Part shown: positions 112 to 21,218 of the stretch, piece after piece
How positions within the stretch are numbered: the first letter of the stretch is position 1
How the letters are laid out: every line of letters begins with the position of its first letter
The notes under the pieces: generated by a model
Told to the model about the DNA's origin: nothing
Databases searched by the model: none
The model's input: the letters and a program-made list of their open reading frames with translations, nothing else
Assembly (NCBI GenBank): GCA_024244705.1
Contig: JAAEOK010000077.1
Location: forward strand, 1-64,000
Length of the DNA: 64,000 nt
Direction: 5' to 3'
Source of the DNA: Alphaproteobacteria bacterium
GTDB lineage: Bacteria > Pseudomonadota > Alphaproteobacteria > JAAEOK01
Position numbers and translations under genes: made by a program

Positions 112-291
112 ATGCCGTGGAAAGAGAGTTCGGTTATGGAGGAACGGTTACGATTTGTTGCCCGGTTGCTGGAAGGCGAGGGCATGAGCGATGTCTGCCG
201 GTCTTTCGGGATATCCCGAAAGACCGGCTACAAAATCTTCAACCGCTACAAGGAACACGGTCTTGAGGCGTTGTGCGGCCGCTCGCGTTGA
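112..291 (+). pseudogene. IS481-family transposase, N-terminal fragment
   Basis: The 59-residue product starts MPWKESSVMEE and carries the helix-turn-helix of IS481-type transposases (FGISRKTGYKIFNRYKEHG), then stops right after GLEALCGRSR, where family members continue into the DDE catalytic domain. The DDE core is absent, so it cannot transpose. Bases 50-111 resemble the usual leader of such elements, but I could not define a terminal inverted repeat. The break falls where a truncated TIM-barrel gene on the other strand begins, so this is a rearrangement junction. Family membership is recognised from the N-terminal sequence; an intact copy is not in the window. Confidence 0.8.
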
Positions 292-710
292 AACCCCAGG
301 CCCGCCGCGTCGAGTTCCGCTTTTATTTCCTGACCGTACATCCCGACAAAGGGTTCGTTCATCACACCCGCGGCACCCAGCGACTCGACAGCGTCGAGCA
401 GGTTCTCGATTGGCTGGCCCGGATCGTGTGCGCCAAGGCCCAAAATGACCGGACAGACGCCGGCATGTGCGAGAACGTCGGGGGCGACGGCAAAGGTAAG
501 GTCGTTTGCATTGTCATACGGCAGGAAAGACAGCAGGGAAGGCAGGCCGCGGCAGCGATACACCGCCGTGCTGTAGGCGGCCAATAGATCGGCACCGCCT
601 TTGACGGCGCCGCGCGCCGTCAATCCGGAGCCGACCCCGGCCATTATCAGCGGTCGGCCGCTATCGATTGAGCCCTTGAAACGAGCCGAGATCTCCTCAA
701 GCATCGTCAT
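246..710 (-). pseudogene. PEP_hydrolase-family TIM-barrel protein, C-terminally truncated
   Basis: The reading frame begins MTMLEEISARFKGS and shows the N-terminal half of the family: GVGSGLTARGA, the AYSTAVYRCRG segment, PYDNANDL, and AAGVMNEPFVGMYG. Homology ends at GLGFQRE (about residue 142); the last residues are out-of-family read-through into the IS481 fragment on the other strand. Intact paralogues here have about 277 residues, so the second half of the barrel is lost, including the HVGLTTGG, HGGP and SSxER motifs. The start at 710 overlaps the stop of the UPF0261 gene by 14 bp, which suggests translational coupling. Probably non-functional. Confidence 0.8.
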
Positions 711-1956
711 TGTCTCCGCCCGCGCTTTCGTGACCTCTCCAAATCCCGATGAAGGCTTCGGCCACGCGGTCCGCAAATGCCGGGTCGTTGATGTTGAACT
801 CCTCCTCGATGCACGGGATGTCCGATCGCAATGTTCGGCGGATTTCGGCACAAAACGCGTCATCCGCGTCGTCGTCGATATACGGGCCATCCGGCCGCTT
901 CTGATAGCTGTCGAACCCGGAAAGCGGAAGCGCCACCACAGTCGGCCCTTTGGCTTGGTTCAGCTTACCGGTCATGATTCGCGCGAGCTCGATGGCCTCC
1001 TCCTTCTTCGTCCGGACGGCCGAGACATAGGGATTGTGCACGATCAGGCGCCGATCCGGCCCATTGAATTCGGCAGGAACGGTATCGCGTGGGCCAAAAT
1101 TCAACACTTCGATGGCACCCGGCACGACGACTTGAGGAATGCTCTGCCGGCCGGCCGCCGACATCCGATCGGGCCCGGCACTGAAGACACCGCCGAGGAA
1201 TTCGTCCGTAAGCTCGCTGGTCGTGAAATCCACGACGCCGTCGACCAGCCCTTCATCGATCATTTGCTCCATGGCGCGGCCGCCCGAGCCGACGGCGTGG
1301 AATACAATGGTTTCGAATCCCGCGTCATGGAGTCGGTCCTGAAGCCGCAGGACGCCTGGTGTCGTCACCCCGAACATGGTTATGCCCACAAGGGGGCGGC
1401 CGGCGTCTTCACCTTCACCCCGCCACACCGTCATCCCCGCGGCGGCCAAGGCGGCATTACCGAGGATCCGTCTCGAGAACCGGTTGAGGCCCGCAATGTC
1501 GGTCACGGAATGCATCAGCGTGATGTCGCGGGTGCCGATATAGGCGGCGGCGTTCGTCACCATGGTCGTCAGCAGCAGCTTCGGCATGCCAAGCGGCATC
1601 GCCCGCATGACGCCGCTGATGACCGAGGCGCCGCCCGAGCCGGCCGCGCCGAGGACCGCGTCGCAGCGGCCTTCGTCTCGAAGCTTCTTCACGATCGTTG
1701 TCGCACCACGCTCCATGGTCGCGAGCGCCTTGGCGCGAGTATCGCTTCCCTCGCGGGAGAAGCGCAATGTCTCGATCGTCGTCCCCGCCGCGGTCGCCAC
1801 GTCCGCGGCTGAGATGTCGGGCTCGATCGCCGGGTCCTTCAGTACGCCGATATCGACGAGAACGACCTCGACGCCGGCGGTCAGCAGGTGTTCTTGCAAA
1901 TACCGGTATTCGCGGCCCTTGGTATCCAGCGTGCCGATCAGAACGACGGTCGCCAT
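697..1956 (-). CDS. UPF0261 (Tm-1-like ATP-binding domain) protein
   Basis: The 419-residue protein is a stand-alone UPF0261 domain. It opens with VLIGTLDTKGREYRYLQEHL and has the conserved GAAGSGGASVISGVMRAMP, the VTDIAGLNRFSRR segment, the MFGVTTPGV loop, HAVGSGGRAMEQ, and a C-terminal NINDPAFAD. The family corresponds to the N-terminal half of tomato Tm-1, which binds tobamovirus replication proteins; its bacterial role is unknown. It lies between two TIM-barrel genes of the family that forms the other half of Tm-1: 12 bp after the upstream one and overlapping the downstream one by 14 bp. An ATP-binding or enzymatic role is inferred only from the family name. Confidence 0.85.
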   Translation of the reverse strand: MATVVLIGTLDTKGREYRYLQEHLLTAGVEVVLVDIGVLKDPAIEPDISAADVATAAGTTIETLRFSREGSDTRAKALATMERGATTIVKKLRDEGRCDAVLGAAGSGGASVISGVMRAMPLGMPKLLLTTMVTNAAAYIGTRDITLMHSVTDIAGLNRFSRRILGNAALAAAGMTVWRGEGEDAGRPLVGITMFGVTTPGVLRLQDRLHDAGFETIVFHAVGSGGRAMEQMIDEGLVDGVVDFTTSELTDEFLGGVFSAGPDRMSAAGRQSIPQVVVPGAIEVLNFGPRDTVPAEFNGPDRRLIVHNPYVSAVRTKKEEAIELARIMTGKLNQAKGPTVVALPLSGFDSYQKRPDGPYIDDDADDAFCAEIRRTLRSDIPCIEEEFNINDPAFADRVAEAFIGIWRGHESAGGDNDDA

Positions 1957-7275: not shown

Positions 7276-9333
7276 CTATTCGTCCTCCTTCTTGCGGCCC
7301 TCGACCTCTCTGGCGATGCTGTGGGCGTCGCGAGCGGAGCGGAAAACGTCACCCATGCGGGCGACATTGGGGTTCTCGACGCCGATCTCCTTCATCATCT
7401 CGTCGATCAGCGGCGCCTGAGCGCGGTAGCGGAGCGCGCTTTCGATGACCTCGTCGGTCGGCGAGCGATGGCCGTCGCCACCGTTGCCGCCGAGGCCGTC
7501 GACATGGAGGATCTTGATCGCCTCGATCCGTTCCATCGGGCGTACGCTCTCGCGGACAATGCCCTCGAGGCGGTCGATCATCTTCGACCGCAGCATCGCC
7601 GCCCGGGCGTCCTGGCTGAGAACGTTCTCGGCCTCGTTGCGCAGGCGCTGGGCTTCGGCGGCGACGGCGGCGGTGATCTTCTCGGTCTCGGCGGCGATGC
7701 GGGCGGTGTCGGCGTCCTTGTCGGCCAACAGCCGGTCGACGGCCGCGATGCGCTCGGCGATCTCGGTTTCGCGGACCGTCGCCACCTTCTCTTCGGCCTC
7801 GACGGTGCGCGCGCGGGCGCCTTCGACCTCGATGCGGGCCTCGGCTTCCTCGAGCTGTTTCTGGAGCACGGTAATCTGGCGCCCGATCTCCGCCAGTTCC
7901 AGCGCCTGCGCCCGCTCGACCTCGAGCCGCTTGAGGTCGCGGTCCTGGACGATCCGCGCCTCCTCGAGGCCGCGGTTGGACGCGATCCGTGCGCGCTCGA
8001 TCTCCTCCTGGGCGGAGATCTCGGCTTCCTCGATGGATTGGCGCTGGGCGACCTGATGCGAGCGCAGCAACCGGTCGCGCTCGATCCGCGCCTTATCGAG
8101 CACCTGTTCCTGGGCGATGCGGGCGGTCTCGACGGCCTTCTGCGACGCGATCCGCGCGGTCTCGATCTCCTGCCCGCGGGCGATGTCGCGACCTTCCGTT
8201 TCCTCCTCGGCGATGATCCGCGCTTCGCGCAATTGCCGATCCGAGACGATGCGCGCCCGTTCCACGTCCTCGTTGGCAGTGATTTCCGCGGTATCGAGCT
8301 CGTGGCGTTGCTCGATCTGCTGCGTCCGGATGTGCTTCTCGCGCTCGATGCGCGATTCCTCAAGCGCACGTTCCTGGGCGATTCGCACCCGCTCGACCTC
8401 TTCCCGGGCCTTGATCTCGGCCTCTTCGACGGTGCGCCGGTGGCCGATCTCGTAGGCGCGCGTCTCCTGTTCGCTGGCAATCCGCGACCGCTCGGCCTCG
8501 GCCTCCTCGGCGACCCGGGTCTGCTGGATCTGGGCCTGCTGGGCGGCGCGCAGGGCCTCGACCTCGCGCTCCTGTTCGAGACGCGAGCGCTCGCTTTCCT
8601 GTTCCAGCTTGAGGGTGTCCTGCTCGACCTCCAGATTGCGGCTGCGGATCGCGACCATGGCCGACTGTTCGATGTCGTTGCGCAGCTTGCGGCGCTCTTC
8701 GATGGTCCCGATCAATTGCGTCAGGCCTTCGGCGTCGAATCGGTTGGCCGGGTTAAAGAATTCGAGGTTGGTCTGATCGAGATCGGTGATCGCCACCGAT
8801 TCCAGTTCAAGGCCGTTGCGCGCCAGCGCGCCCGCCGCCCGTTCCTCGACGACGGCGACATAGTCGCCGCGTTTCTCGTGCATCTCGTCGAGCGACATCT
8901 CGGCCGCGACCGAACGGAGCGCGGCCACGAACTTTCCGAGCAGCAGGTCGGCCAGGCTGTCGGGCTCCATCGTGCGGCGGCCCAGCGTCGAGGCAGCGGC
9001 GGCGACCGCCGCTGGTTCCTGGATGACACGGACGAAGAACTCGGCCTCGATATCGACACGCATGCGGTCGCGCGTGATCACCGCGTCCTCGCGGGTTCGC
9101 GCCACCGGGATGCGTACGACGTTGAGGTTGACCGCGGTCACCTCATGGACGATCGGCAGGACCAGTGCCCCGCCATTGATCACCACCGTTTCGCCGCCGA
9201 ATCCGGTTCGCACGAAGGCGACTTCCTTGCTCGACCGGCGATAGAGCCAGTTAAGCAGGTAGACGACGACCACGATCAGGACGATCGCGACAATGAGCCA
9301 AAGAATGATCGATCCGATCAACGCACCGGTCAT
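7276..9333 (-). CDS. Flotillin-like SPFH protein with long 11-residue repeat domain
   Basis: The 685-residue protein has one N-terminal transmembrane helix (about residues 5-30), an SPFH/Band 7 domain (about 35-200) and a long highly charged helical region. From about residue 284 to 485 the sequence follows an 11-residue period beginning R/E-I-A/E (RIAQERALEES, RIEREKHIRTQ, QIEQRHELDTA, and so on, about 18 units). A larger 88-residue repeat (8 x 11) relates the segment at 317 to that at 405. The C-terminus (about 630-685) resembles flotillins again. Flotillins scaffold membrane microdomains; inside a transporter operon it may organise the permease in the membrane, which is inference. Confidence 0.85.
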   Translation of the reverse strand: MTGALIGSIILWLIVAIVLIVVVVYLLNWLYRRSSKEVAFVRTGFGGETVVINGGALVLPIVHEVTAVNLNVVRIPVARTREDAVITRDRMRVDIEAEFFVRVIQEPAAVAAAASTLGRRTMEPDSLADLLLGKFVAALRSVAAEMSLDEMHEKRGDYVAVVEERAAGALARNGLELESVAITDLDQTNLEFFNPANRFDAEGLTQLIGTIEERRKLRNDIEQSAMVAIRSRNLEVEQDTLKLEQESERSRLEQEREVEALRAAQQAQIQQTRVAEEAEAERSRIASEQETRAYEIGHRRTVEEAEIKAREEVERVRIAQERALEESRIEREKHIRTQQIEQRHELDTAEITANEDVERARIVSDRQLREARIIAEEETEGRDIARGQEIETARIASQKAVETARIAQEQVLDKARIERDRLLRSHQVAQRQSIEEAEISAQEEIERARIASNRGLEEARIVQDRDLKRLEVERAQALELAEIGRQITVLQKQLEEAEARIEVEGARARTVEAEEKVATVRETEIAERIAAVDRLLADKDADTARIAAETEKITAAVAAEAQRLRNEAENVLSQDARAAMLRSKMIDRLEGIVRESVRPMERIEAIKILHVDGLGGNGGDGHRSPTDEVIESALRYRAQAPLIDEMMKEIGVENPNVARMGDVFRSARDAHSIAREVEGRKKEDE

Positions 9334-9348
9334 GATTCCATCCTCCCT

Positions 9349-10182
9349 TTAGCCGCTCGCAATATTCTTGAAGGCCATGGTTTGCTCGGTCAGCGCGCTT
9401 TCCGTCGGCAGCCGTTCCATCGACGAGGCGCCATAGAAGCCATGGCAGGTCTCTGTATTGTCCAGGACATAACGGGCGTCGGCCGGCATCGACACCGGCC
9501 CGCCATGAACCAGAACGATGATGTCCGGGTTGATCTTGAGCGCCGCTTGCGCCCAGGCATCGACCAGCGCCGGGCAGTCCTCGAGGGCCAAGGCGGTCGC
9601 GGCGCCGATCGACCCACCGGTCGTCAGGCCGAGGTGGCAGACGACGAAATCGGCTCCCGCCTCCGCCATTGCCGCCGCATCGTCCTCGTTGAACACATAG
9701 GGCGTGGTCAGCAGGTCCTTCTCGCGGGCGAGGCGGATCAGATCGACCTCCTGGCCATAGGACATGCCGGTTTCTTCGAGATTGGCGCGGAAGCTGCCGT
9801 CGAAGAGGCCGACCGTCGGAAAATTCTGGACGCCGGTAAAGCCGACCGCCTTCAACTCGTCGAGGAAGCGGTCGAAGATGCAGAACGGGTCGGTCCCGTT
9901 GACGCCCGCCAGCACCGGCGTTTGGTGCACCACCGGCAGCACCTCGCGGGCCATTTCCATGACCACGTCGTTGGCGTTGCCATAGGCCATCAGCCCGGCC
10001 AGCGACCCGCGTCCGGCCATCCGGTAGCGCCCTGAATTGTAAATCACGATGAGGTCGATGCCGCCCGCCTCCTCGCATTTGGCGGACAGGCCGGTGCCGG
10101 CGCCGCCGCCGATGATCGCCACGCCCCGGCGTTTCATGTCGTGGAACTTTTCCAGCAGGTCTTTTCGCTCAAAGCGCGGCAT
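9349..10182 (-). CDS. PEP_hydrolase-family TIM-barrel protein
   Basis: The 277-residue protein is a full-length family member: [13 protein letters not shown], the [17 protein letters not shown] segment, [56 protein letters not shown] and SSMERLPTE. Its start overlaps the 3' end of the LivF-UPF0261 fusion gene by 14 bp, so the two Tm-1-type halves are made from adjacent, probably coupled, cistrons, as in the block at 697-2799. The ligand or reaction is unknown. The flotillin gene follows after 15 bp. Confidence 0.87.
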
Positions 10183-12460
10183 GTTGGCGCATCCTCGTTG
10201 TTGGGTGGATTTCTTCCAGGGCCTCGACGACCGCCGTCGCGAAGGCCGGGTCGTTGATGTTGTAGGGCGTGCGAATTAGGCGGCGGGTCGTTGTCTCCTG
10301 GAACCGCGTCGCGATCGCATCGAACAGTGCCTTGTCGGCGGCCGGATCGTGGAACGGCTGGCCCGGCGCATCGAGCGCTGAGACGCCGCCCTCCGGGATC
10401 AGGAAGCGCACCGGGCCGGTCATCTCGTTCAGCCGGCCGGCGATCCAATCGCCCATCCGCGCGTTCTCCTCGGCGGTCGTGCGCATCAAGGTGACCTGGG
10501 GATTGTGCTCGACGAAGGTGCGGCCGCGGTAGCGCTCGGGGACCGTGTCACGGGCGCCGAAATTGACCATGTCGAGCGCCCCGACCGACCCGACATAGGG
10601 AATGCGCGTGCGGATGAACGCGCCGAAGCGGTCCTCGGTCGCGGGAAAGACGCCGCCCATCATCATGTCGCAAACCTCGGTCGTCGTCAGGTCTACCGCC
10701 GCCGCCAGCATGAAGCTGTCGGCCAGCTTTTCCATCGACCGACCGCCGGTGCCGGTGGCATGAAACACCAGGCAGTCGTATCGGTCGTCGAGCAGCGCAG
10801 TGATCTGCTGGACGGCCGTCGTGGTGACGCCGAACATGGTCAGGCCGAGGCCAGGCTTCTCGGGCCCGGCCCGCCGATGTTGCGCCTCCTCGGCGCCGTC
10901 TTGGACCATGCCGGCCAAGGCGTTGGCCGCGTTCGCCAGGACCCGCCTGGAAATCCGGTTGAGCCCCTGCACGTCGGTGACCGAATACATCATCATGATG
11001 TCCGACGGGCCGACATACCGGCCAACATCGCCGGAGGCGACGGTCGAGACCATGACCTTCGGAATGCCAACAGGAAGGCCGCGCATGCCGGGCGTCACCA
11101 GCGAGGTGCCGCCGGAACCGCCGGCGGAGATGATGCCGCCGACGCCGCGCTGGCGCTGGAGCCAGTTCTCGAACGCCTCGGCCATGGCGCCCACCGCCGC
11201 GCCGCGATCGCCGGTAAACATCGCCGCCGCGCCGCTGCGGTGATAGGCGGCCACGACATGGGGCGGGACGTCGGCCGATGACGGCCGGCCCGAGGTCGAC
11301 AGGTCGACAGTGCGCACCGGCAGGCCATGGTCGGCCAGAACATCACGAATGTAGCTGAGCTCCGCCCCCTTGGTATCGAAAGTGCCGACGACATAGACAT
11401 CGTTGCCGGCAAGGGCGTGGAGCGGGGTCGGCGGCTCCTTGAAGATGGGCTCGGGCTTGGCGTCGAAAGGCCGGACCGGCGCGGTGTCGGCGGCCGGTCG
11501 CGGCGGCGCTTCCTGGCCACCTTCGCCCTCGCGCCAGGCGGCGCTCGACCACCGGGTCGGCGCCATATAGACGAGGTTTGTCGCAGCCACTGGTTCAGGC
11601 ACGGATTCGGGCGCAGGTTCGGGCGCGGCCCTCAATTCTTCGGCCGCCGCCGGTTCCACGACCTCGGGCGCGGTTGGTTCGGGCGCGGGCGCTGCGGGCA
11701 CCGCCGGTTCGGGGTCCTGGTGGGAATGGCGGCCGACGCCGAGCAACTGCTCCTGCAGGGTGCGGTCGCCGGCAAGTTCCTGCGCCGGCATCACCCGGCT
11801 GATGCGGCCGTTAACCATGATCGCGACGTCGTCGGCGATCGAGGTGGCGACCGCGATGTTCTGTTCGATCAGCAGGATCGCGACATCGCGTTCGGCGGCA
11901 AGCGTCGCCAGCAGCGACTCGACCTGCTCGACGATGAGCGGCGCCAGGCCCTCGGTCGGCTCGTCCAGAATCAGCAGCCGCGGGTTCTGCAACAGGGCGC
12001 GCGAGATCGCCAGCATCTGCTGCTCGCCGCCCGATAGCTGGCCGGCGCGGTTGCGCCGACGCTCGTCAAGGCGCGGGAAGGTCTCGTAGATGCGGTCGAT
12101 GGTCCACGCGCCGTCACCGCTCTCGGCGAGCCGCAGATGCTCGTCGACGCTGAGCGAGGGCCAGAGCCGCCGTCCCTGCGGCGTGTAACCGACACCCTTG
12201 GCGGCGATCCGGTAGGGCGGCAGGCCGGCGAGCTCGTCGCCCTCGAAGCGGACCGAGCCGCGTCGGACCGGCAACAGGCCGACGATGGCGTTGCACAGGG
12301 TCGTCTTGCCCATGCCGTTGCGTCCGACCACCGCATGGACGCCGTGCTCCAGCGTCAGGTCGACGCCCTGGAGCGCGTGGGATTGGCCGTAATAGACATG
12401 CAGATCCCGAATCTGCAGCGCGGGCGCAGGTTCCCGGCGCTCGCGTTCGCGCCTACGCAT
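10169..12460 (-). CDS. LivF-type ABC ATPase fused to UPF0261 (Tm-1-like) domain
   Basis: The 763-residue protein begins with a LivF-type ATPase: Walker [10 protein letters not shown] at 46-54, Q-loop near Q95, signature LSGGEQQ at 142-148, Walker [11 protein letters not shown] at 162-171, and an EQN switch region as in other LivF proteins. Residues 245-350 form a Pro/Ala/Glu-rich linker. From about 354 a complete UPF0261 domain follows ([67 protein letters not shown] at the end). LivF is normally about 235 residues with no such extension. It overlaps the livG-like gene by 8 bp and the TIM-barrel gene by 14 bp. The fusion physically ties the Tm-1-like domain to the transporter at the inner face of the membrane. 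Confidence 0.9.
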
Positions 12461-13247
12461 GGCCCTGCCCCAGATAGATTTCCTGCACCTCGGGGTCGTT
12501 TTCGATCTCGTCCGGCGTCCCTTCCTTGAAGATCCGCCCGTTGTGCATCATCGTCACGCTCTCCGAGACCCGCAGCGCCACGTCCATGTCGTGCTCGATG
12601 ATGATGTATCCGATGTGATCGGGCAGCGAGCGCAGGATCTCGACCAGTTCCCCCCGTTCGGTCGGCGACAGGCCGGCCGCGGGCTCGTCGAACAACAACA
12701 GCCGGGGCGCCCCGGCCAGCGCCAGGGCGATTTCGAGCTGGCGCTGCTGCCCGTGGCTGAGCGCGGCGACCGCCGTGTCCCGCACATTGTCGAGATGCAC
12801 GGCCTCGAGCAGCGTTTCCGCGGCCTGCATCGCGGTGTCGTCGGGCGGCGGTCGGCGCAGCGCGAACCGCCCGCGGCTGACCCCACGGCAGGCGAGGTAG
12901 ATGTTGTCGATCACGCTGAGGCCGTCGAATAGCAGCGAGATCTGATAGGTCCGGCGCAGGCCGCGCCGAATCCGTTCGTGGACCGGAAAGTCGGTCACAT
13001 CCTCACCAAACAGGCGCACGCGGCCCGTGGTCGGCGGGAAATCGCCGGTGATGGCATTGAACAAGGTCGTCTTGCCGGCACCGTTCGAGCCCAGAACCGC
13101 GCGTCGTTCCCCCGCCTGCACCGTCAGATTGATGTCGGCAAGGGCGACCAGCGCGCCGAAATGGCGGCTGACCGCTTCAAGCTCCAGCGCAAAACGGCCG
13201 GCGCTTTGAAGTCGGGACAGCGCGTCGGTTCCGGGCGTCGACGGCAT
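12453..13247 (-). CDS. ABC transporter ATP-binding protein, LivG type
   Basis: The 264-residue ATPase has Walker [10 protein letters not shown], a Q-loop region RRTYQIS, signature [10 protein letters not shown], Walker [14 protein letters not shown] and the switch histidine in IIEHDMDV. LivG-type proteins pair with LivF and drive a LivH/LivM permease of the HAAT class (branched-chain amino acids, amides, urea and similar). The first 16 residues extend beyond the usual LivG start; an internal start is possible. It lies 5 bp after the binding-protein gene and overlaps the fusion gene by 8 bp, which supports a single operon and ATPase pair. Confidence 0.9.
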
Positions 13248-13252
13248 CGGAC

Positions 13253-14500
13253 TTACATGCAGGACGGGTTTTCGCGGCCGACCTGCCCGTATTTCAGGAA
13301 CTCCTCATAGGAGAGGCCGAAGGTCTGCGTGACCTGTGGGATCACCTCGATCGTCTTGTTGAGCAGGTTCCCATCGGGTCCTTCGATCACTTCGGTCAGG
13401 AACATGTCCGCGATCGCCTGGCGCCGTTCGTCGAGCGACACCTTGCCGGTCGGGGTGTCGAATTCCAACGCGGACAGGGCCGCGCGGAACTTGACGCCAC
13501 CGTCGGAGAGGTCGCCGCCGACCTCGTTGAGCGCCAACAGGGCCGCCTTGGTATTGATGTAATAGCCATGGGCGAACAGCGAGGGCGACGGGAAGCCGTC
13601 CGGGAACTGCTTCTTGTAGGCAGCAACGAACCCGTTCCACGCCGGATTGTCCCAGGTGTCGGAGATTGGTCCCGCCGACGGCGTGCCGATCACGAAATCG
13701 CGGGTCCGGCCCTTCGAGCCGAGCACGGTCTGGTCAACGGTGATCGATCCGCCAATCAACGGCAGCTCGCCGCCGGTCTGCTCGTACTGGGTCAGGAAGT
13801 TGACCGCATCGGCGCCACCGAGCGCGACGTAGATCGCATCGACGTCATCCGGGAGCGCGGCGATGACCGACGAATAGTCCTTGTTGCCGATCGGGACCCA
13901 GAACCGGGCATCGATCGGCGCCTTGCCGCCGAGGCGGCAGAACGGCTCAAGAAAGCCGAAGACCTGGGTATAGGGGAAGGAATAGTCCTCGGCGAGCACG
14001 GCGACCTTGCGGTAGCCCTTCTTGTTGTAGGCATACTCGCCGAGCCCGGCCATCCACTGGGCGCCATCGGTGCTGAAGCGGAAGAAGTTCTCCGCCGGGC
14101 TGCGCAGGGTCGTGTCCTGGGCCGCCGAGGTGCCGTTGAGGAAGGTCACGTTGGGTTGGGTCTTGGCATAATCCTTGACCGCGAGGCCCTCGGAACCCGA
14201 CAGCGGGCCGATCAGGACCTTGACGCCGTCCTGCTCGACGAGCTTCCGCGTCGCGCGGATCGCGCTGTCGGGCGACGCGTCCGACGATCCGGTGATGAGT
14301 TCGATCTTCTTGCCGCCGGCCATGTGGCCGAACTCTTCGAGCGCCATCCGGACGCCCCGGATGCCGTCCTCACCGGGCGCGGCAAACGCGCCCTCCAATG
14401 TTGCCAACGCGCCCAACTTGATTGAATCCTGGGCGACGGCAGGGCTCGCGAATGCCAACACGATGGCCGCCGCAAGTGCTTTCTTGGCTAGTCCGTGCAT
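13253..14500 (-). CDS. ABC transporter periplasmic solute-binding protein, LivJ/amide type
   Basis: The start at 14500 is chosen for GGAGGTGATT just upstream. The 415-residue product has a cleavable signal peptide ending ASPAVAQ, then the type I periplasmic-binding fold: DSIKLGALATLEGAFA, GEDGIRGVRMALEEFG, ATRKLVEQDGVKVLIGP, and GYRKVAVLAEDYSFPY. It captures the ligand for the LivHM permease encoded just downstream in the sequence but upstream in transcription. The specificity cannot be read from the sequence; the neighbours argue against a simple amino-acid transporter. Confidence 0.9.
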   Translation of the reverse strand: MHGLAKKALAAAIVLAFASPAVAQDSIKLGALATLEGAFAAPGEDGIRGVRMALEEFGHMAGGKKIELITGSSDASPDSAIRATRKLVEQDGVKVLIGPLSGSEGLAVKDYAKTQPNVTFLNGTSAAQDTTLRSPAENFFRFSTDGAQWMAGLGEYAYNKKGYRKVAVLAEDYSFPYTQVFGFLEPFCRLGGKAPIDARFWVPIGNKDYSSVIAALPDDVDAIYVALGGADAVNFLTQYEQTGGELPLIGGSITVDQTVLGSKGRTRDFVIGTPSAGPISDTWDNPAWNGFVAAYKKQFPDGFPSPSLFAHGYYINTKAALLALNEVGGDLSDGGVKFRAALSALEFDTPTGKVSLDERRQAIADMFLTEVIEGPDGNLLNKTIEVIPQVTQTFGLSYEEFLKYGQVGRENPSCM

Positions 14501-14515
14501 AATCACCTCCACTGT

Positions 14516-15586
14516 TCAGGTTTGTTCGAGCGACCCGGCAGCGTGCCGGTCGACCCGTTCCACGCGGCCGGACTTGGACCGCGTGCTTCCGCCAATCCGG
14601 AGCCGGGGACGGATCCGGTGCCAAATGCCGATAAGGCCATCCGGCGAAAATAAAACCACCAAAAGAAATGCCACTCCGATCACGGTGTTGAACCGCTCCC
14701 GGTCGATCAGGTCGATCGCGAAATTCTCGAGCAGGACAAAGGCCAGCGCCCCGAGGAACGGCCCGACCGGGTGCCGGATGCCGCCAATCACGGCAATGAC
14801 CAGGATGTCGATGACGATGCCGACGCCGACCGAGCCCGAGGATATGCGGCCGTTGAACCAGACAAATAGGACGCCCGCGGTGGCCGCGATCAGGCCGGAC
14901 AGAAAATAGGCGACGATGCGATGCAGGGTTACGTTGTAGCCGAGCGCGCGCATGCGCCGCGGGTTATCGCGGATGGCCTGGAGCCCGAGCCCGAAGGTCG
15001 AGCGCGAGGCGTAAAGGACGGCGAGGAAGAAGAAGCCCGCCACGGCCAACGATAAATAGTAGAACGGCACTGGATCGCGCCAATAGACCCCAAGCAGCGT
15101 CGGCGGCTCGACCCCGGCGAAGCCCGTCCAGCCGTTGAACAGCACGTAGTTCTGCCGCACCAGGTAGAAGAAGGCGACGGCGATCGCCAGCGTGATCATG
15201 ATCGTATAGATACCCTCGGTCCGGACCGCGACCGCGCCGACGAAGGCGCTGAACAGGGCGGCGCCGAGAATGGCGGTCGGCACGAACAGCCACCACGGCC
15301 AGTCGAGCCCCATCACTTCGACGCTGTTGTCGCCGAGGATCGCGACCAGATAGCCGGCGAGGCCGGCCACCGTCATTTGGGCCAGGCTGACCATGCCGCC
15401 ATAGCCGGCCAGCATCATCAGCGACAGCGCGATCGTCCCGAGGATCAGCGAATAGGCCCCGATCTGGAAGACGAAAAAGTCGGAGGCGAAGGTCGGATAG
15501 GCGATCAGGACGACCACGGTGGCGATTGCCGCTGGATGGATATCGCTGACGGAATGGCGGCCGGAGAATAGGCTGCGCGCGTTCAT
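14516..15586 (-). CDS. ABC transporter permease, LivM type
   Basis: The real gene begins at the ATG at 15586 (MNARSLFSGRHSVSD); the open frame further upstream only shadows livH. The 356-residue protein has roughly nine hydrophobic segments and LivM hallmarks: YSLILGTIALSLMMLAGYGG, VSLAQMTVAGLAGY, the EAA-like loop AIRDNPRRMRALGYNV, and the C-terminal GGIRHPVGPFLGALAFVLLE. It forms the permease dimer with LivH, whose stop codon is only 2 bp before this start. The C-terminus is basic and carries on beyond the last membrane segment. Confidence 0.9.
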   Translation of the reverse strand: MNARSLFSGRHSVSDIHPAAIATVVVLIAYPTFASDFFVFQIGAYSLILGTIALSLMMLAGYGGMVSLAQMTVAGLAGYLVAILGDNSVEVMGLDWPWWLFVPTAILGAALFSAFVGAVAVRTEGIYTIMITLAIAVAFFYLVRQNYVLFNGWTGFAGVEPPTLLGVYWRDPVPFYYLSLAVAGFFFLAVLYASRSTFGLGLQAIRDNPRRMRALGYNVTLHRIVAYFLSGLIAATAGVLFVWFNGRISSGSVGVGIVIDILVIAVIGGIRHPVGPFLGALAFVLLENFAIDLIDRERFNTVIGVAFLLVVLFSPDGLIGIWHRIRPRLRIGGSTRSKSGRVERVDRHAAGSLEQT

Positions 15587-15588
15587 GC

Positions 15589-16599
15589 CTAGCGTTCCCC
15601 CATGATGCCCTGCGGACGCACGGCGAGGACGACGACCATGATCAGGAACGTCAGCACGACGCCGTAAGTCGGGAAGTAGGCGAGGCCGAACTGTTCGGCG
15701 AGCCCGATCAACAGGGCGCCGATCGCCGCGCCGGTGACCGAGCCGAGGCCGCCGACGATGACCACGATCAGGGACGCCAGCAGGTAACGGAGGTCCTCGC
15801 CCGGTGCAATTGACAGCGCCGTCCCGCCGACGACGCCGGCAAACCCGGCCAGCCCGGCGCCGATCGCGAAGACAAGGGCGAAGACGAGCTGCACGTTGAC
15901 CCCGGTTGCCGACAGCATCTCGCGGTCGTTGACGCCGGCGCGGATCATCATCCCGACCCGGGTCCGGTTGAGGAACAGCCAGAGGCCGATCCCGACCGCG
16001 ACCGCGACGAAGAGGACGGACAGGCGATAGACCGGATATTTGATGTAGACCGGGTCGCCCGAGGCCTTGATTACCGATACCACCGGCAGGCTGGCCGCAC
16101 CGAACAGCCATTCCGGCGGCTGGAACTGATAGGTGGTGCCGGTCCACACCGCCAGCATCAGGTCGGCGGCGATGATCGAGATGCCGATCGTGACCAGGGT
16201 CTGGCGCAAATCGTCCCCTTCCATGCGGCGAAAGACGAGGACCTGCAACAGCATCCCGCTGAGCCCGATGGCGACGAAGGCGGCGGCAAGGCCGAGGAAC
16301 CAATTGCCGCTGGCCTCGGCGACCTCGTAGCCGATATAGGCGCCGAGAAGATACATCGAGCCGTGCGCCAAGTTGACGTTGCGCATCAGGCCGAAGACCA
16401 GGGTGAAGCCGCTGGCGACGAGGAAATACAGCCCGCCCAGGGTGATCCCGTTGAGCAGCGTATTGACGAAGGTCTTCTTGCGGCCGAGGGCGTCGATCAG
16501 CCAATCGGGCCAGACCGCGGCGATCAGCCACAGAAAAAGCGCCGCAACAACGGCGATCACGATCGCCCAAAAGGTATGGCGCTCGATGAACTGCCTCAT
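15589..16599 (-). CDS. ABC transporter permease, LivH type
   Basis: The 336-residue membrane protein has the LivH signature NTLLNGITLGGLYFLVASG, GLMRNVNLAHGSMYLLGAYI and the ATPase-contact loop GVNDREMLSATGVNV. It also has an N-terminal membrane helix and a short segment ahead of the core. It is the first gene of the minus-strand train and the likely transcription start lies in the 426-bp upstream gap. A GC-rich hairpin stands directly before its start codon, which may limit ribosome access. Confidence 0.9.
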   Translation of the reverse strand: MRQFIERHTFWAIVIAVVAALFLWLIAAVWPDWLIDALGRKKTFVNTLLNGITLGGLYFLVASGFTLVFGLMRNVNLAHGSMYLLGAYIGYEVAEASGNWFLGLAAAFVAIGLSGMLLQVLVFRRMEGDDLRQTLVTIGISIIAADLMLAVWTGTTYQFQPPEWLFGAASLPVVSVIKASGDPVYIKYPVYRLSVLFVAVAVGIGLWLFLNRTRVGMMIRAGVNDREMLSATGVNVQLVFALVFAIGAGLAGFAGVVGGTALSIAPGEDLRYLLASLIVVIVGGLGSVTGAAIGALLIGLAEQFGLAYFPTYGVVLTFLIMVVVLAVRPQGIMGER

Positions 16600-16607
16600 G
16601 GGGTTTT

Positions 16608-16633
16608 CCGTGCCGGCCTAAGGCCGGACACGG
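16608..16633 (-). promoter_or_regulatory. Leader hairpin directly before livH
   Basis: On the minus strand CCGTGTCCGGCC and GGCCGGCACGG flank a TTA loop, giving a near-perfect 11-bp stem with one mismatch, 8 bases before the livH ATG. No T-run follows, so it is not a standard terminator. It could occlude the ribosome-binding site or stabilise the 5' end of the message. Confidence 0.5.
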
Positions 16634-16827
16634 CGCTCCCGCGTGGCGCCGAAATGCGGCATATCGTTGTCCCTCCCTGCGGCGCCGTCGCCAGCGCGAC
16701 GGACACCCTTCATTTCGCTAGCGCGGGCCCCCGATCGGGCGGCGCCCATACCGCTGCAGCGTTGTTAGTTCCGCTTTGAAAAGCCTGTCTCGCCGGGACC
16801 GCCGCTGCAACCGGCGAAATCAATCGA

Positions 16828-16847
16828 TTGGGTAAATTTGGGTAAAA
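16828..16847. repeat. 10-bp tandem direct repeat in AT-rich control region
   Basis: TTGGGTAAAT at 16828-16837 is followed directly by TTGGGTAAAA at 16838-16847. The 10-bp period puts both copies on the same face of the helix, as expected of a tandem protein-binding site. It sits in the divergent control region of the transporter operon, so the nearby Fis-type regulator is the natural candidate ligand, but that is inference. Confidence 0.6.
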
Positions 16848-17025
16848 TTATTTGATATATTGACTGAATCCATTTTCGGTCGTGAGTCATTCTCAGGCCG
16901 GTCCGACCGAATCGCCATGGCGCGACCCCTTGCCGACCGTGGGACATCGGCCGGCTGCGGCGCGATGCCCGGAAAGGACGGCTTATCGCGGTCGCAATTC
17001 GGCCGGCCGGGGGCTAGGCTGGCCG

Positions 17026-17712
17026 ATGATGGTGAATTGCATGACATGGCGGATCGTCCTGCGGCACGGAGGCCCGGACGCGGCGGCGGACATTCCGGCC
17101 GCGGTCTTGACGATCGGGCCCCGGTTCCGCCAGGAGGGGATGCCGGAGGAGGTCAGCATTCTGCTGCCGACCAACGCGGGTCCGAAGCGACTTATCGACG
17201 CCGTCGCCGAGGGCTCGGCGCCGGTCGACGGCGCGATCCTCGGCCTGTTTCTCGCCAGCCCGTTCCTGAATGTCGAATCGGAGGGGCGGCGCTTGGCCCA
17301 GGCGGGGGTCCGATGGGTGACGAATTTGCCCAGCGTCGCCCAGCAGGACGAGGAATTCGCCCGCCAGCTGTCCGATGTCGACCTCGACCACCGCCGTGAG
17401 CTGCAGTCGTTGGCGGCCGTTCGCGACCAGGGGTTCCGGATCGCCCCCGTCGTCGCCGACGGTGCGGACGCGGTGGCGGCAGTCGACATCGCTCCCGACG
17501 CCTTGATCGTGCTGCCGCGGGTTGCCGATTTCGCCGCCGGTTTCCCGTCCCTGCGGCAGCGCGGCGCCGCCATCCAGGCGGTCGCCAATGCCGTGGCGGC
17601 TGCGGGCTGGCCGGGGCCCGTCTTCGGTCTCGGCAACACGGGGGAGGCCGAACACGAACGGCTGTGGCCGGAGCGCCTCGACGGCATGATCTGCCGCCCG
17701 GTGCCGGTGTGA
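17026..17712 (+). CDS. Divergent, shortened PEP_hydrolase-like TIM-barrel protein
   Basis: The 228-residue product (MMVNCMTWRIVLRHGG) is not obviously a known enzyme. Its middle resembles the other barrels here: GLFLASPFLNVESEGRRLAQ, GVRWVTNLPSVAQQDEEFA, DLDHRRELQSLAAVRDQGFR and DALIVLPRV line up with the corresponding parts of the regulator at 17728. It lacks the N-terminal glycine-rich strand and the HGGP and SSxER motifs, so it is probably not catalytic and may bind ligand only. The start could also be 17041; no strong ribosome-binding site decides it. It converges on the regulator gene with only 15 bp between stops. Confidence 0.6.
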   Translation: MMVNCMTWRIVLRHGGPDAAADIPAAVLTIGPRFRQEGMPEEVSILLPTNAGPKRLIDAVAEGSAPVDGAILGLFLASPFLNVESEGRRLAQAGVRWVTNLPSVAQQDEEFARQLSDVDLDHRRELQSLAAVRDQGFRIAPVVADGADAVAAVDIAPDALIVLPRVADFAAGFPSLRQRGAAIQAVANAVAAAGWPGPVFGLGNTGEAEHERLWPERLDGMICRPVPV

Positions 17713-17727: not shown

Positions 17728-19518
17728 TCAGCCGTCGAGACCATACTTCTTGATCTTGTTGTAGAGGGTCTTGCGAGAAATGCCGAGGGCGGCCGCTGTC
17801 TCCGTCCGGTTGAAGCCGTGTCGCCAGAGGGCATCGACGATGCTGTCCTTCTCGGTGCGGATGACGGGCGCGGCGTCGGCGTCCTGTTCCAGGACCGGGA
17901 GCAGCTCGGACGGTTGAACCGGCTCGTCCCACGACCGGTCGGCAAGCGCGCCGAGGAGGGCGCGCAATTCCGCCTCGTTGCCCGGCCAATGATGAGCGTG
18001 GAGTTGTTTGGCCGCCGCCGCCGAGAAACGCGACCAGTCGACGGCAACGCTCAGGCTGTCTGCGGTCATCGCCTCGATCACGGTCATCAGGTCGTCGATG
18101 CGCTCGCGGAGCGGCGGCAGGCGCAGGGTCCAGCCGGTCATATGGGCGATCAGCTCGGGCTCCAGTCCGGCGCCGGCAAGGGCTTCCTCTTCGTGGCCCT
18201 CGGCAACCGGAAAGTCGCAGACCAGGGCCAGCCGCGGCACGACCGGCAGCGGGCGCCGCGTGCCGACCGCGCGGAAGGCGCCGTCGCGGAGCGCCCGGGC
18301 GAGCCGCCGCTGGGTCGCCGGCGGCAGGCGCTCGGGCGCACGAATGACAAGCAAGCCGATCTCGCTGTCGGCGAGCGCCGGCCGGCGCCGGGTGATCGTG
18401 TCGCGGTGGCCGAATAGGATATTGCGCGCCCGGACGGGTCGGTCCTCGCCGGCGACATCGACAGTGACGATCGCCGACGCGCGGGCCTGACCCTTCGGGG
18501 CGCTCAAAGCCTTCAGCGCCGGCATCGCGCCGATGCCCCGTTCGGCGAGCAGCAGGACCGGCTCGGATGCCGACGCCAGCGCCCGCAAACGGCGCAAAAA
18601 GGCGAGATGAGGCCGCGAGGTGCCGACTAAGCCGAACTGCCGCGCCCAGGCGACGAGGCCGGAATCGTCCGAATCAAGTTCGGCGCCATGCTTGCTGGCG
18701 TGGCGAAAGCGGTCAATCTGATCGGCGACCGACACCTCGAGCGGGATGCGCTCGATCGTCGAGCCGCCGACATAGCCGTCGATCGGCGCGAGGTTAACGA
18801 TTCGCCCCAGGTCCTCCGCGGTGACGATTGGCCCGCCTTCGAGCAAGAAGCGCGTCGCCGGGTTGATACGTTTTATCAGGCGGCCGACCTCGCGGGCCAC
18901 GGTAGCGACCTCCTCGATCGTCGCCCGGCCGCGGTGGCCGAAAACGCCGCCGACGTTCCAACCCAGGTTCAAGCAGATGAGGTCGATCGCCGCATCGGCC
19001 GCCAGCCGTGCCTGGGTCCGCGTCGCGCAGTAGAACATAGAGGTCAGGCCGACATCCTGGGCCGCTCGCAGGAGCTCGACCTCGCGCTCGATCCCACGCC
19101 CGGCACGCGCCAGGAGTTGTTGCATCGGGCGCGAATAGTGCATGCAGCTGGGGAAATTGACCGCCCCGGCGAAGCCGGCGTCGCGGATCGCCTCGGCCTT
19201 GCCCACCGGGTCGAAATCTGGTTCCCAGACGTTCACGCCGAGCAGGACCGGAATCCGGCACTGAACGAGCAGCTCCTCGCGGGCGAAGCGGTCGGTCAGG
19301 TTGTCAGCATCGAAGATCGGTAGCATGCAGGCGATCGAGGGCGCCCCCATGTTGCGCAGCCGGCCGGCGTTGATCGCCAGCAGGATATCGGCCCCGCCGT
19401 GTTCGGCGGCGAGCGCCGTATTGCCCGACCCGATCGCCGCACCGATCAGGAACTTGCGGGGAAACGGCAGCCCGCGGCCATCATCGTCGCCACGGAAGCC
19501 TTTTCCCGACGTAGCCAC
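17728..19518 (-). CDS. Transcriptional regulator: PEP_hydrolase-like sensor, degenerate AAA+, Fis-type HTH
   Basis: The 596-residue protein starts with GTG at 19518, AAAGG about 10 bases upstream. Residues 22-270 form a PEP_hydrolase-type barrel (IGAAIGSGNTALAAEHGGAD, GVNVWEPDFDP, GAVNFPSCMHY, LNLGWNVGGVFG, LEGGP, GGSTIERIP). Residues 294-520 align with NtrC-type AAA+ domains (ILFGH at 367, RLPPLRERIDD at 466, WPGNEAELRAL at 511). The P-loop equivalent, AERGIGAMP near 325, has no lysine; the GAFTGA loop is missing after ILFGH; and the Walker B acidic pair is replaced by LLVIRAPER. The C-terminus (557-594) is a Fis-type HTH (FNRTETAAALGISRKTLYNKI). It probably senses a ligand and controls the transporter operon without sigma-54. 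Confidence 0.88.
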   Translation of the reverse strand: MATSGKGFRGDDDGRGLPFPRKFLIGAAIGSGNTALAAEHGGADILLAINAGRLRNMGAPSIACMLPIFDADNLTDRFAREELLVQCRIPVLLGVNVWEPDFDPVGKAEAIRDAGFAGAVNFPSCMHYSRPMQQLLARAGRGIEREVELLRAAQDVGLTSMFYCATRTQARLAADAAIDLICLNLGWNVGGVFGHRGRATIEEVATVAREVGRLIKRINPATRFLLEGGPIVTAEDLGRIVNLAPIDGYVGGSTIERIPLEVSVADQIDRFRHASKHGAELDSDDSGLVAWARQFGLVGTSRPHLAFLRRLRALASASEPVLLLAERGIGAMPALKALSAPKGQARASAIVTVDVAGEDRPVRARNILFGHRDTITRRRPALADSEIGLLVIRAPERLPPATQRRLARALRDGAFRAVGTRRPLPVVPRLALVCDFPVAEGHEEEALAGAGLEPELIAHMTGWTLRLPPLRERIDDLMTVIEAMTADSLSVAVDWSRFSAAAAKQLHAHHWPGNEAELRALLGALADRSWDEPVQPSELLPVLEQDADAAPVIRTEKDSIVDALWRHGFNRTETAAALGISRKTLYNKIKKYGLDG

Positions 19519-19797: not shown

Positions 19798-20124
19798 TCA
19801 CGATTTTCGCGCTTTCAGGATAGCTTCGTCGCCGAGGTGGAAATGGAATTCGATTTCGAGGGTTCCATCATCTTCGAGTTCGGCGGATCCGTCACCGCGC
19901 GCCTCGTCCATTTCATCGAAGCCCTCCCAAGTGAAGAAGATGATCCGACGGGAATATTCGCAATCGAGGCCGCCCTTGACGCAACCGAATGCAAAATCTC
20001 CATGGCCATCACTTTCAAAGGTCATGTGAGCGGGCTCCAGGAGATCGAGAAAGGTACGATCCCAGAGATCGGCTTCGGTGATGCGCCATTTGCCGATCAG
20101 TTCGCAGACAATCTCCCTTGTCAT
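19798..20124 (-). CDS. Conserved hypothetical protein, IS passenger
   Basis: The 108-residue acidic protein (MTREIVCELIGKWRITEADL) belongs to a conserved small-protein type with WDRxFLDL, FESDGHGDFAFG, DCEYSRR and the FFTWEGFDEMDEARG motif; I know no function for it. Its ATG overlaps the transposase stop codon as ATGA, so it is probably translated by reinitiation behind the transposase. Its stop codon TGA lies at the inner edge of the element's left terminal repeat. The gene is therefore wholly inside the IS and moves with it. A regulatory or host-benefit role is open. Confidence 0.8.
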   Translation of the reverse strand: MTREIVCELIGKWRITEADLWDRTFLDLLEPAHMTFESDGHGDFAFGCVKGGLDCEYSRRIIFFTWEGFDEMDEARGDGSAELEDDGTLEIEFHFHLGDEAILKARKS

Positions 20125-21218
20125 GGCGGCGCTTGGGCGAGGAGCCTGGGCAAGCGGATCAGGTTGTAGGCGGCAGCGGCGAAGGTGAAGGACGCCTCGA
20201 CACGAGGTTGCCCACGAAAGCGGGTCTTGGCCTGACCGGCGATAGTCTTGACCCAGCCGAAGACCTCCTCGATCCGTTTGCGATGACGCTGCGAGAGATC
20301 GTAGCCGGGCGGCGTTGGAATGGGGTGGCCACCCCAGCCGACCTCGGCTCGCCGCGCCATATGGGGCACCAAGCCCCGCTCCTTCAGCGCCTGCTTGAAG
20401 CGCCAGACATCATAGGCCTTGTCGGCGCCAAGCGTGGCGCCAGCGCGAGGTGCCTGGCCGTCGACCAAGTCCAAGGCGGCCTCGCGTTCGGCTGTACCGC
20501 TCGTGCGGGTCACCAGGATGCCAACCACCAAGCCGTTGCGGTTCTCCATCAAAGCGTGACCCATGAAACAAAGCTTGCTCTCCTTGCCACGGCCTTTGCG
20601 ATAGAGCCGCGCGTCCGGATCAGTGGTGCTGGCATGGGTCTCATTCTTGCGCCTTTGGCCCCGAAAATCTCGATCCGGATTGCGGTCCTGGCCAGGGCCG
20701 CCATCGTCCTTGCCTGACCCATCAGCCTCTTTGGGGCGGAAAGACTTCATCGACGCCCAGGCCTCGATCAAGGTTCCATCCACCGAAAAGTGATCCTGGC
20801 TCAGAAGGCCCTGCACACGCTCATGCGCGATAATCCCGGACAGAAACTTGCGGGAGATTTCCGCTTCCAGAAGCCGGTCTCGGTTCTTGCAAAACACCGT
20901 CGCGTCCCAGACCGCCTCATCAACGCCGAGACCGACGAACCAGCGGTAAAGCAGATTGAAGTCCAACTGCTCCATCAACTGGCGTTCCGAACGGATTGAA
21001 TAAAAGACCTGCAGCAGCAGAGCCCGAAGCAGCTTCTCGGGTGCGATCGACGGGCGGCCCCTGTGCGAATAGACCACCGCAAAATCCGCCGACAAACCCA
21101 CAAGAACGGCGTTCACAACCTCACGGATCAGCCGCAGCGGATGGCCTTCCGGAACACGCTCCTCAAGATCAACATAGCTGAAAAGCGCGCCGCTCCTTCT
21201 GTCCTCACAACGCATCAA
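20121..21218 (-). CDS. IS5-family transposase
   Basis: The 365-residue transposase opens FSYVDLEERVPEGHPLR and has the N-terminal domain with RALLLQVFYSIRSERQLMEQ, a DDE catalytic core beginning DHFSVDGTLIEAWAS, the insert region rich in Asp/Gly/Arg, GADKAYD for the second acidic residue, and RKRIEEVFGWVKTIAG for the third. No frameshift is seen. Members of this group (annotated IS5 or close relatives) insert at short CTAG or TA-containing targets, which fits the flanks here. It overlaps the passenger gene by 4 bp. Confidence 0.9.
   Translation of the reverse strand: MMRCEDRRSGALFSYVDLEERVPEGHPLRLIREVVNAVLVGLSADFAVVYSHRGRPSIAPEKLLRALLLQVFYSIRSERQLMEQLDFNLLYRWFVGLGVDEAVWDATVFCKNRDRLLEAEISRKFLSGIIAHERVQGLLSQDHFSVDGTLIEAWASMKSFRPKEADGSGKDDGGPGQDRNPDRDFRGQRRKNETHASTTDPDARLYRKGRGKESKLCFMGHALMENRNGLVVGILVTRTSGTAEREAALDLVDGQAPRAGATLGADKAYDVWRFKQALKERGLVPHMARRAEVGWGGHPIPTPPGYDLSQRHRKRIEEVFGWVKTIAGQAKTRFRGQPRVEASFTFAAAAYNLIRLPRLLAQAPP

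Follow-up and report, generated by a model that had tools for sequence, protein, structure and literature searches.

An NtrC-derived regulator with a degenerate AAA+ domain and a pseudoenzyme barrel is probably a sigma-54-independent activator of a liv-UPF0261-PEP_hydrolase operon

What does a transcription factor do that has the build of a sigma-54 activator but none of the motifs that drive one? This question is raised by an alphaproteobacterial gene in a 64,000-nucleotide stretch of DNA (contig JAAEOK010000077.1, positions 1 to 64,000; the whole stretch is called the window here), the product of which, REG, joins an enzyme-like barrel to a degenerate AAA+ domain and a helix-turn-helix (HTH):

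17728..19518, minus strand: REG, predicted ATPase-dead regulator, GTG start, open reading frame of 596 aa
18703..19455, minus strand: PEP_hydrolase barrel (PF09370) of REG, aa 22-272, Pfam E 8.5e-57, His/His/Lys changed to Asn/Glu/Leu
18229..18627, minus strand: core of the degenerate AAA+ domain (aa ~297-470), from profile and motif alignment
aa 471-549 of REG, minus strand: lid, AAA_lid_14, Pfam match below cut-off
17740..17856, minus strand: Fis-type HTH (HTH_8), aa 555-592, Pfam E 1e-12, recognition helix SRKTLYNK

A preliminary description had named a TIM barrel of an enzyme family as the input domain of REG and placed a Fis-type HTH at its C-terminus, and both assignments agree with the profile matches. 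Membership of the barrel in PF09370, a family that Pfam presumably once described as the N-terminal domain of sigma-54 activators, is backed by a barrel fold like that of PDB 2p10. The Sigma54_activat profile matched aa 298-430 with 21.7 bits, barely above the Pfam cut-off of 20.2. AF2 modelling supported the barrel and AAA+ folds, while the arrangement of the domains was predicted without confidence (pTM 0.52). NtrC-type ancestry is nevertheless evident from profile matches, sequence matches in the PDB, the fold, the homologous AAA+, lid and Fis-type HTH, and a graded series of sister regulators (see below). Alignment of REG against 24 NtrC-type proteins of related genomes gave the following motif table:

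Walker A: GESGTGKE, in REG AERGIGAM
GAFTGA loop: deleted in REG (FGHRD-----TI)
Walker B: LFLDEI, in REG LVIRAP
Sensor I: RIIAATNRDL, in REG RLALVCDFPV
R-finger: FREDLFYRL, in REG LEPELIAHM
Sensor II: WPGNVREL, in REG WPGNEAEL
Retained in REG: LPPLRERIDD and FGH

The alignment confirms that the stretches noted earlier as ILFGH and RLPPLRERxDD are kept and that the P-loop Lys, GAFTGA and the Walker B acids are gone, and it adds the sensor-I Asn, the R-finger and the sensor-II Arg to the losses. Whether homologues share them had been posed as a check. A search of one genome per species, covering 84,980 species, returned 21 full-length relatives, to which genome searches added more; these dead-type relatives (56-73% identity) come from Sneathiella, Pelagibius, Hwanghaeella, Pacificispira and MAGs. 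Walker A Lys, GAFTGA, both Walker B acids, sensor-I Asn and R-finger were gone in 23 of 23 aligned dead-type sequences, and the sensor-II Arg in 21 of them, L046 and L050 being the exceptions (WPGNEREL and WPGNDREL, with Arg). Hence none of the 23 orthologues has the residues that ATPase activity requires (the Walker A Lys, the Walker B acids, sensor I and the R-finger), and the GAFTGA loop of functional sigma-54 enhancer-binding proteins is missing from all of them as well as from 11 of 11 sister regulators. By motif loss, REG is expected to be ATPase-dead and sigma-54-independent, which supports the earlier expectation that it would neither hydrolyse ATP nor contact sigma-54. The source genome itself encodes rpoN and three strong, full-scoring NtrC-type proteins.

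The degenerate domain is nonetheless maintained. Mean identity among the regulators was 75% in the barrel, 70% in the HTH and 48% in the AAA core, and dN/dS of the AAA core, where measurable among the ten closest pairs, ranged from 0.05 to 0.37 (below 1), so that the AAA part of REG is under purifying selection. Gene order is strict as far as the contigs reach: REG, a small convergent PF09370 partner, livH, livM, a gene for a substrate-binding protein, livG, livF-UPF0261, PEP_hydrolase and SPFH. One record titled Mesoflavibacter (Bacteroidota), L052 (CP051228.1), carries an alphaproteobacterial REG locus, and its label is probably wrong. In the window, a transposase-like open reading frame (20121-21218, minus strand) lies directly upstream of REG, and the gene order seen beyond REG elsewhere stops there. 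The genes on the other side of REG include the predicted target operon:

17026..17712, plus strand: small partner (228 aa), convergent with REG, a PF09370-like reduced barrel
15589..16599, minus strand: livH, permease gene at the head of the predicted target operon
10169..15592, minus strand: livM, substrate-binding protein, livG and the livF-UPF0261 fusion
10169..12460, minus strand: livF-UPF0261 (Tm-1-like) fusion, LivF ABC ATPase, 763 aa
9349..10182, minus strand: enzyme-type PEP_hydrolase of the target operon

The livF-UPF0261 fusion is retained in nearly all related loci and is split into two separate genes in G001 (L063). An SPFH/flotillin-like long coiled-coil protein is encoded inside the operon (7276-9333, minus strand), in the same place as in related loci, and a third PEP_hydrolase copy (246-890, minus strand) near the contig end covers profile positions 2-138 only and is truncated or frameshifted. 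The small partner adjoins REG in all dead-type loci and several sister loci. It was predicted confidently as a reduced PF09370 barrel (pLDDT 92, nearest fold 2p10), no DNA-binding domain was recognised in it, and it is possibly the partner of the REG sensor barrel.

The barrel of REG was compared with enzyme-type PF09370 proteins. Three residues, which in the 9349-10182 protein are His183, His226 and Lys35, occur without exception in 22 of 22 such enzymes, where they may well be catalytic. In the dead-type regulators (23 of 23), His183 is replaced by Asn, His226 by Glu and Lys35 by Leu, Met, Val or Arg, so that not one orthologue retains any of the three. Many of the glycines and of the polar residues in the pocket are unchanged. 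Because the invariant His/His/Lys of the enzyme family is replaced, the barrel of REG is most simply read as a non-catalytic sensor, a refinement of the enzyme-like barrel sensor proposed at first.

We then asked where such a regulator would bind. The preliminary description had pointed to 16600-17025, between livH and the partner gene. A motif search with shuffled controls covered the partner/livH intergenic regions, both where an extra GntR-type gene lies between the two genes, as in about half of the dead-type loci (L038, L040-L043, L045, L047, L052, L054 and others), and where there is none, as in the window. A single signal stood far above the shuffles, a direct repeat in the same orientation at every locus, so that the proposed region does hold a strongly conserved, REG-linked predicted site:

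16829..16845, minus strand: predicted operator TTACCCA-N3-TTACCCA, direct repeat read on the minus strand, from motif search and conservation
16805..16810, minus strand: predicted livH promoter, -35 box TTGCAG, from promoter scoring
16782..16787, minus strand: predicted -10 box CAGGCT, 17-bp spacer, from promoter scoring
near 16775, minus strand: expected livH transcription start, from spacing

The repeat was present at every dead-type locus examined, and nine of the ten sister loci, despite quite different operons, had its core, TACCCA-N4-TACCCA, with 0-1 mismatches. In the 4.5-Mb genome it has one exact match, 16829-16845, matches with two mismatches being at control level; a search of 16 genomes gave 10 exact matches, nine of them near REG in REG-bearing genomes and one, in G007, unexplained. 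Loci that carry the same liv transporter operon but no REG had no site with up to two mismatches, bar one match inside a coding region. The recognition helix SRKTLYNK is common to nearly all site-bearing regulators, and the G001 regulator, whose locus has no operator site, has STRTLYNK instead. A second conserved, GATTC-like element flanks the repeat on the partner-gene side, and the same motif search upstream of REG itself gave nothing clearly above the shuffles. Taken together, these comparisons make TTACCCA-N3-TTACCCA the likely operator of REG. A palindromic operator was also considered, and an EM search under two-fold constraint kept returning the direct repeat. The idea that the AAA+ part serves as a dimerisation module, put forward in the preliminary description, is doubtful in the usual two-fold sense, since the two half-sites of the predicted operator follow each other in direct orientation at a 10-bp period and form no palindrome; a head-to-tail scaffold would fit better.

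Sigma-70-type promoters were scored at every offset from the repeat in 21 dead-type and 11 sister promoters. In both independent sets the best average offset was 36 bp from the repeat start, and by predicted promoter position the centre of the repeat lies near -63 (-62 in the window); the -10 boxes are weak, and the -35/-10 assignments rest on position averages. At CRP-type promoters, a centre near -61/-63 is the class I activator position, and by predicted geometry the repeat would occupy this position. The Azospirillum sister promoter (TTGGCA-N16-TACACT) leaves just enough space for a short leader ahead of the UPF0261 gene. When sigma-54 promoters (-24/-12, GG-N10-GC) were sought with up to two mismatches allowed, a candidate appeared in one of 23 target regions.

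Comparison across loci thus brings out the loss of AAA+ motifs, the changed barrel residues, a conserved predicted site and its spacing from the predicted promoter. On these grounds we consider it probable, with reservations, that REG, a descendant of an NtrC-type enhancer-binding protein, activates the liv-UPF0261-PEP_hydrolase operon as a class I factor independent of ATP and sigma-54, working through the direct repeat and a ligand-sensing barrel. The barrel, a dead relative of the PEP_hydrolase encoded by the target operon, would bind a pathway metabolite, and the dead AAA+ domain would survive as a static scaffold keeping two HTHs in head-to-tail register. The two HTHs would bind TTACCCA-N3-TTACCCA, the centre of which lies near -62/-63 of the predicted sigma-70-type promoter, and from there REG would stimulate RNA polymerase in class I fashion, the position coming from comparison and the contact being presumed. 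The operon for the liv transporter, UPF0261 and PEP_hydrolase would thereby be turned on. Against this explanation count the weak -10 boxes, the box assignments from position averages, the low-confidence domain arrangement, a direct repeat as the site of a Fis-type HTH, which is unusual, and the co-occurrence of the small partner with REG.

The strongest competitor, although we regard it as unlikely, is that REG on the same repeat is a ligand-released repressor, or a regulator with a dual role at livH and at the partner gene divergent from it. The repeat does sit between two divergent genes, with the GATTC-like element on the partner side, repression needs no contact with polymerase, and Caulobacter NtrC, which is also without GAFTGA, represses genes too (PMC10274813). 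Activators, however, typically bind as this repeat is placed, upstream of the livH -35 box at a fixed distance and in a fixed orientation in two independent promoter sets, and the weak -10 boxes resemble those of activator-dependent promoters. We give much less credence to the repeat being bound by a different protein, be it the GntR-type regulator, the small partner or some unlinked factor, with REG acting elsewhere: REG is not the sole protein linked to the site, being accompanied by the small PF09370 partner, but that partner is without a recognised DNA-binding domain, the GntR-type gene is missing from loci that retain the site, and the site is gone where the operon is without REG. Similarly improbable is gating of REG by a nucleotide or second messenger that its AAA+ domain binds without hydrolysis, in the manner of VpsR with c-di-GMP. 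VpsR is a precedent among GAFTGA-less relatives and is among the closest folds and sequences to REG; it retains GESGTGKE, however, whereas Walker A, Walker B and the sensor residues are all gone in REG, and the more conserved barrel is the better sensor candidate. An ordinary sigma-54 activator that was misread in sequencing or is decaying as a pseudogene would account for the missing motifs and weak Sigma54_activat score, yet chance or local error is ruled out because the losses are common to all aligned orthologues, which already refute this explanation, and full-length open frames, strict synteny and purifying selection leave next to no room for decay.

The wider clade includes eleven sister PF09370-AAA+-Fis regulators, encoded in genomes G001, G360 and G417 or on plasmids of Sinorhizobium, Mesorhizobium, Bradyrhizobium, Azospirillum, Terrarubrum, Qingshengfaniella, Bosea and Shinella. 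The G001 regulator retains P-loop, sensor I, R-finger and sensor II, and the others mostly retain a P-loop or its remnant together with sensor II; Sigma54_activat scores fall from 127 bits (G001) over 76 and 57 to ~22. In the barrel tree every regulator lies on the same side of a 100/100 branch, and in the AAA+ tree a 100/99 branch parts the regulators from canonical proteins, with G001 nearest the canonical group. Subject to long branches and the choice of rooting, the series suggests that GAFTGA was lost first, Walker B and R-finger next and the P-loop last. No PF09370-fused regulator with intact GAFTGA was found in a sampling made up chiefly of Alphaproteobacteria and plasmids. Four exact operator copies surround one sister regulator (L061, G360:C1:7693206-7709641), which suggests a local multi-operon regulon. 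We tentatively extend the model, as a conjecture we would not yet favour outright, to the whole clade now labelled sigma-54-dependent: an AAA+ motor would have become an inert scaffold by which HTHs are positioned at direct repeats for class I activation with sigma-70, metabolites would be sensed by a pseudoenzyme barrel, a second, reduced barrel protein would serve as partner, and living relatives would keep steps of the conversion. The clade would then offer a graded natural series for an AAA+ motor becoming a static transcription factor, and the predicted operator and promoter geometry make the activator idea directly testable and give a handle on the UPF0261/PF09370 pathway.

In the literature searched, we found no paper on bacterial PF09370 regulators and no description of the bacterial function of UPF0261/PF09370 proteins, which correspond to the two halves of Tm-1, a virus-resistance protein of tomato (PMC5028733). 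The barrel of REG resembles Mll9387 (PDB 2p10) and the enzyme-type PEP_hydrolase in fold (TM 0.77 to target) and in sequence match (27-28% identity), but differs from them in its replaced His/His/Lys and in its use as a sensor domain. The rhizobial-plasmid PF09370-AAA+-Fis regulators (NGR234, M. japonicum pMLa) share architecture, recognition helix, operator core and UPF0261/PEP_hydrolase targets with REG; unlike REG, most retain a P-loop or remnant and the sensor-II Arg, and they are linked to other transporters and catabolic genes. They are annotated 'sigma-54-dependent Fis family' or 'phosphoenolpyruvate hydrolase family', and for the regulators of this clade the labels 'sigma-54-dependent' and 'PEP hydrolase' are probably both wrong. 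With PspF, ZraR, NtrC1 and NtrX of the NtrC family, REG has in common the AAA+ and lid fold, LPPLRER and a C-terminal Fis-type HTH, but it is without their nucleotide-cycle motifs and GAFTGA, and its target is without a sigma-54-type promoter. Closer in this respect are Rhodobacter capsulatus NtrC, Caulobacter NtrC and Vibrio VpsR, which are without GAFTGA and reported to act at sigma-70 promoters, the two NtrC proteins retaining ATP binding or hydrolysis (PMC10274813). REG shares the missing loop with these three, its own link to sigma-70 coming from predicted promoter geometry, but it is without any nucleotide-cycle motif, whereas VpsR keeps the Walker A Lys; its input is a pseudoenzyme barrel, where the NtrC/VpsR relatives have a receiver-type domain, and its predicted site is a direct repeat. 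To the GAFTGA-less relatives already known at sigma-70 promoters, the REG clade would add a wider motif loss, sensing by a pseudoenzyme, an operator built as a direct repeat and a graded series.
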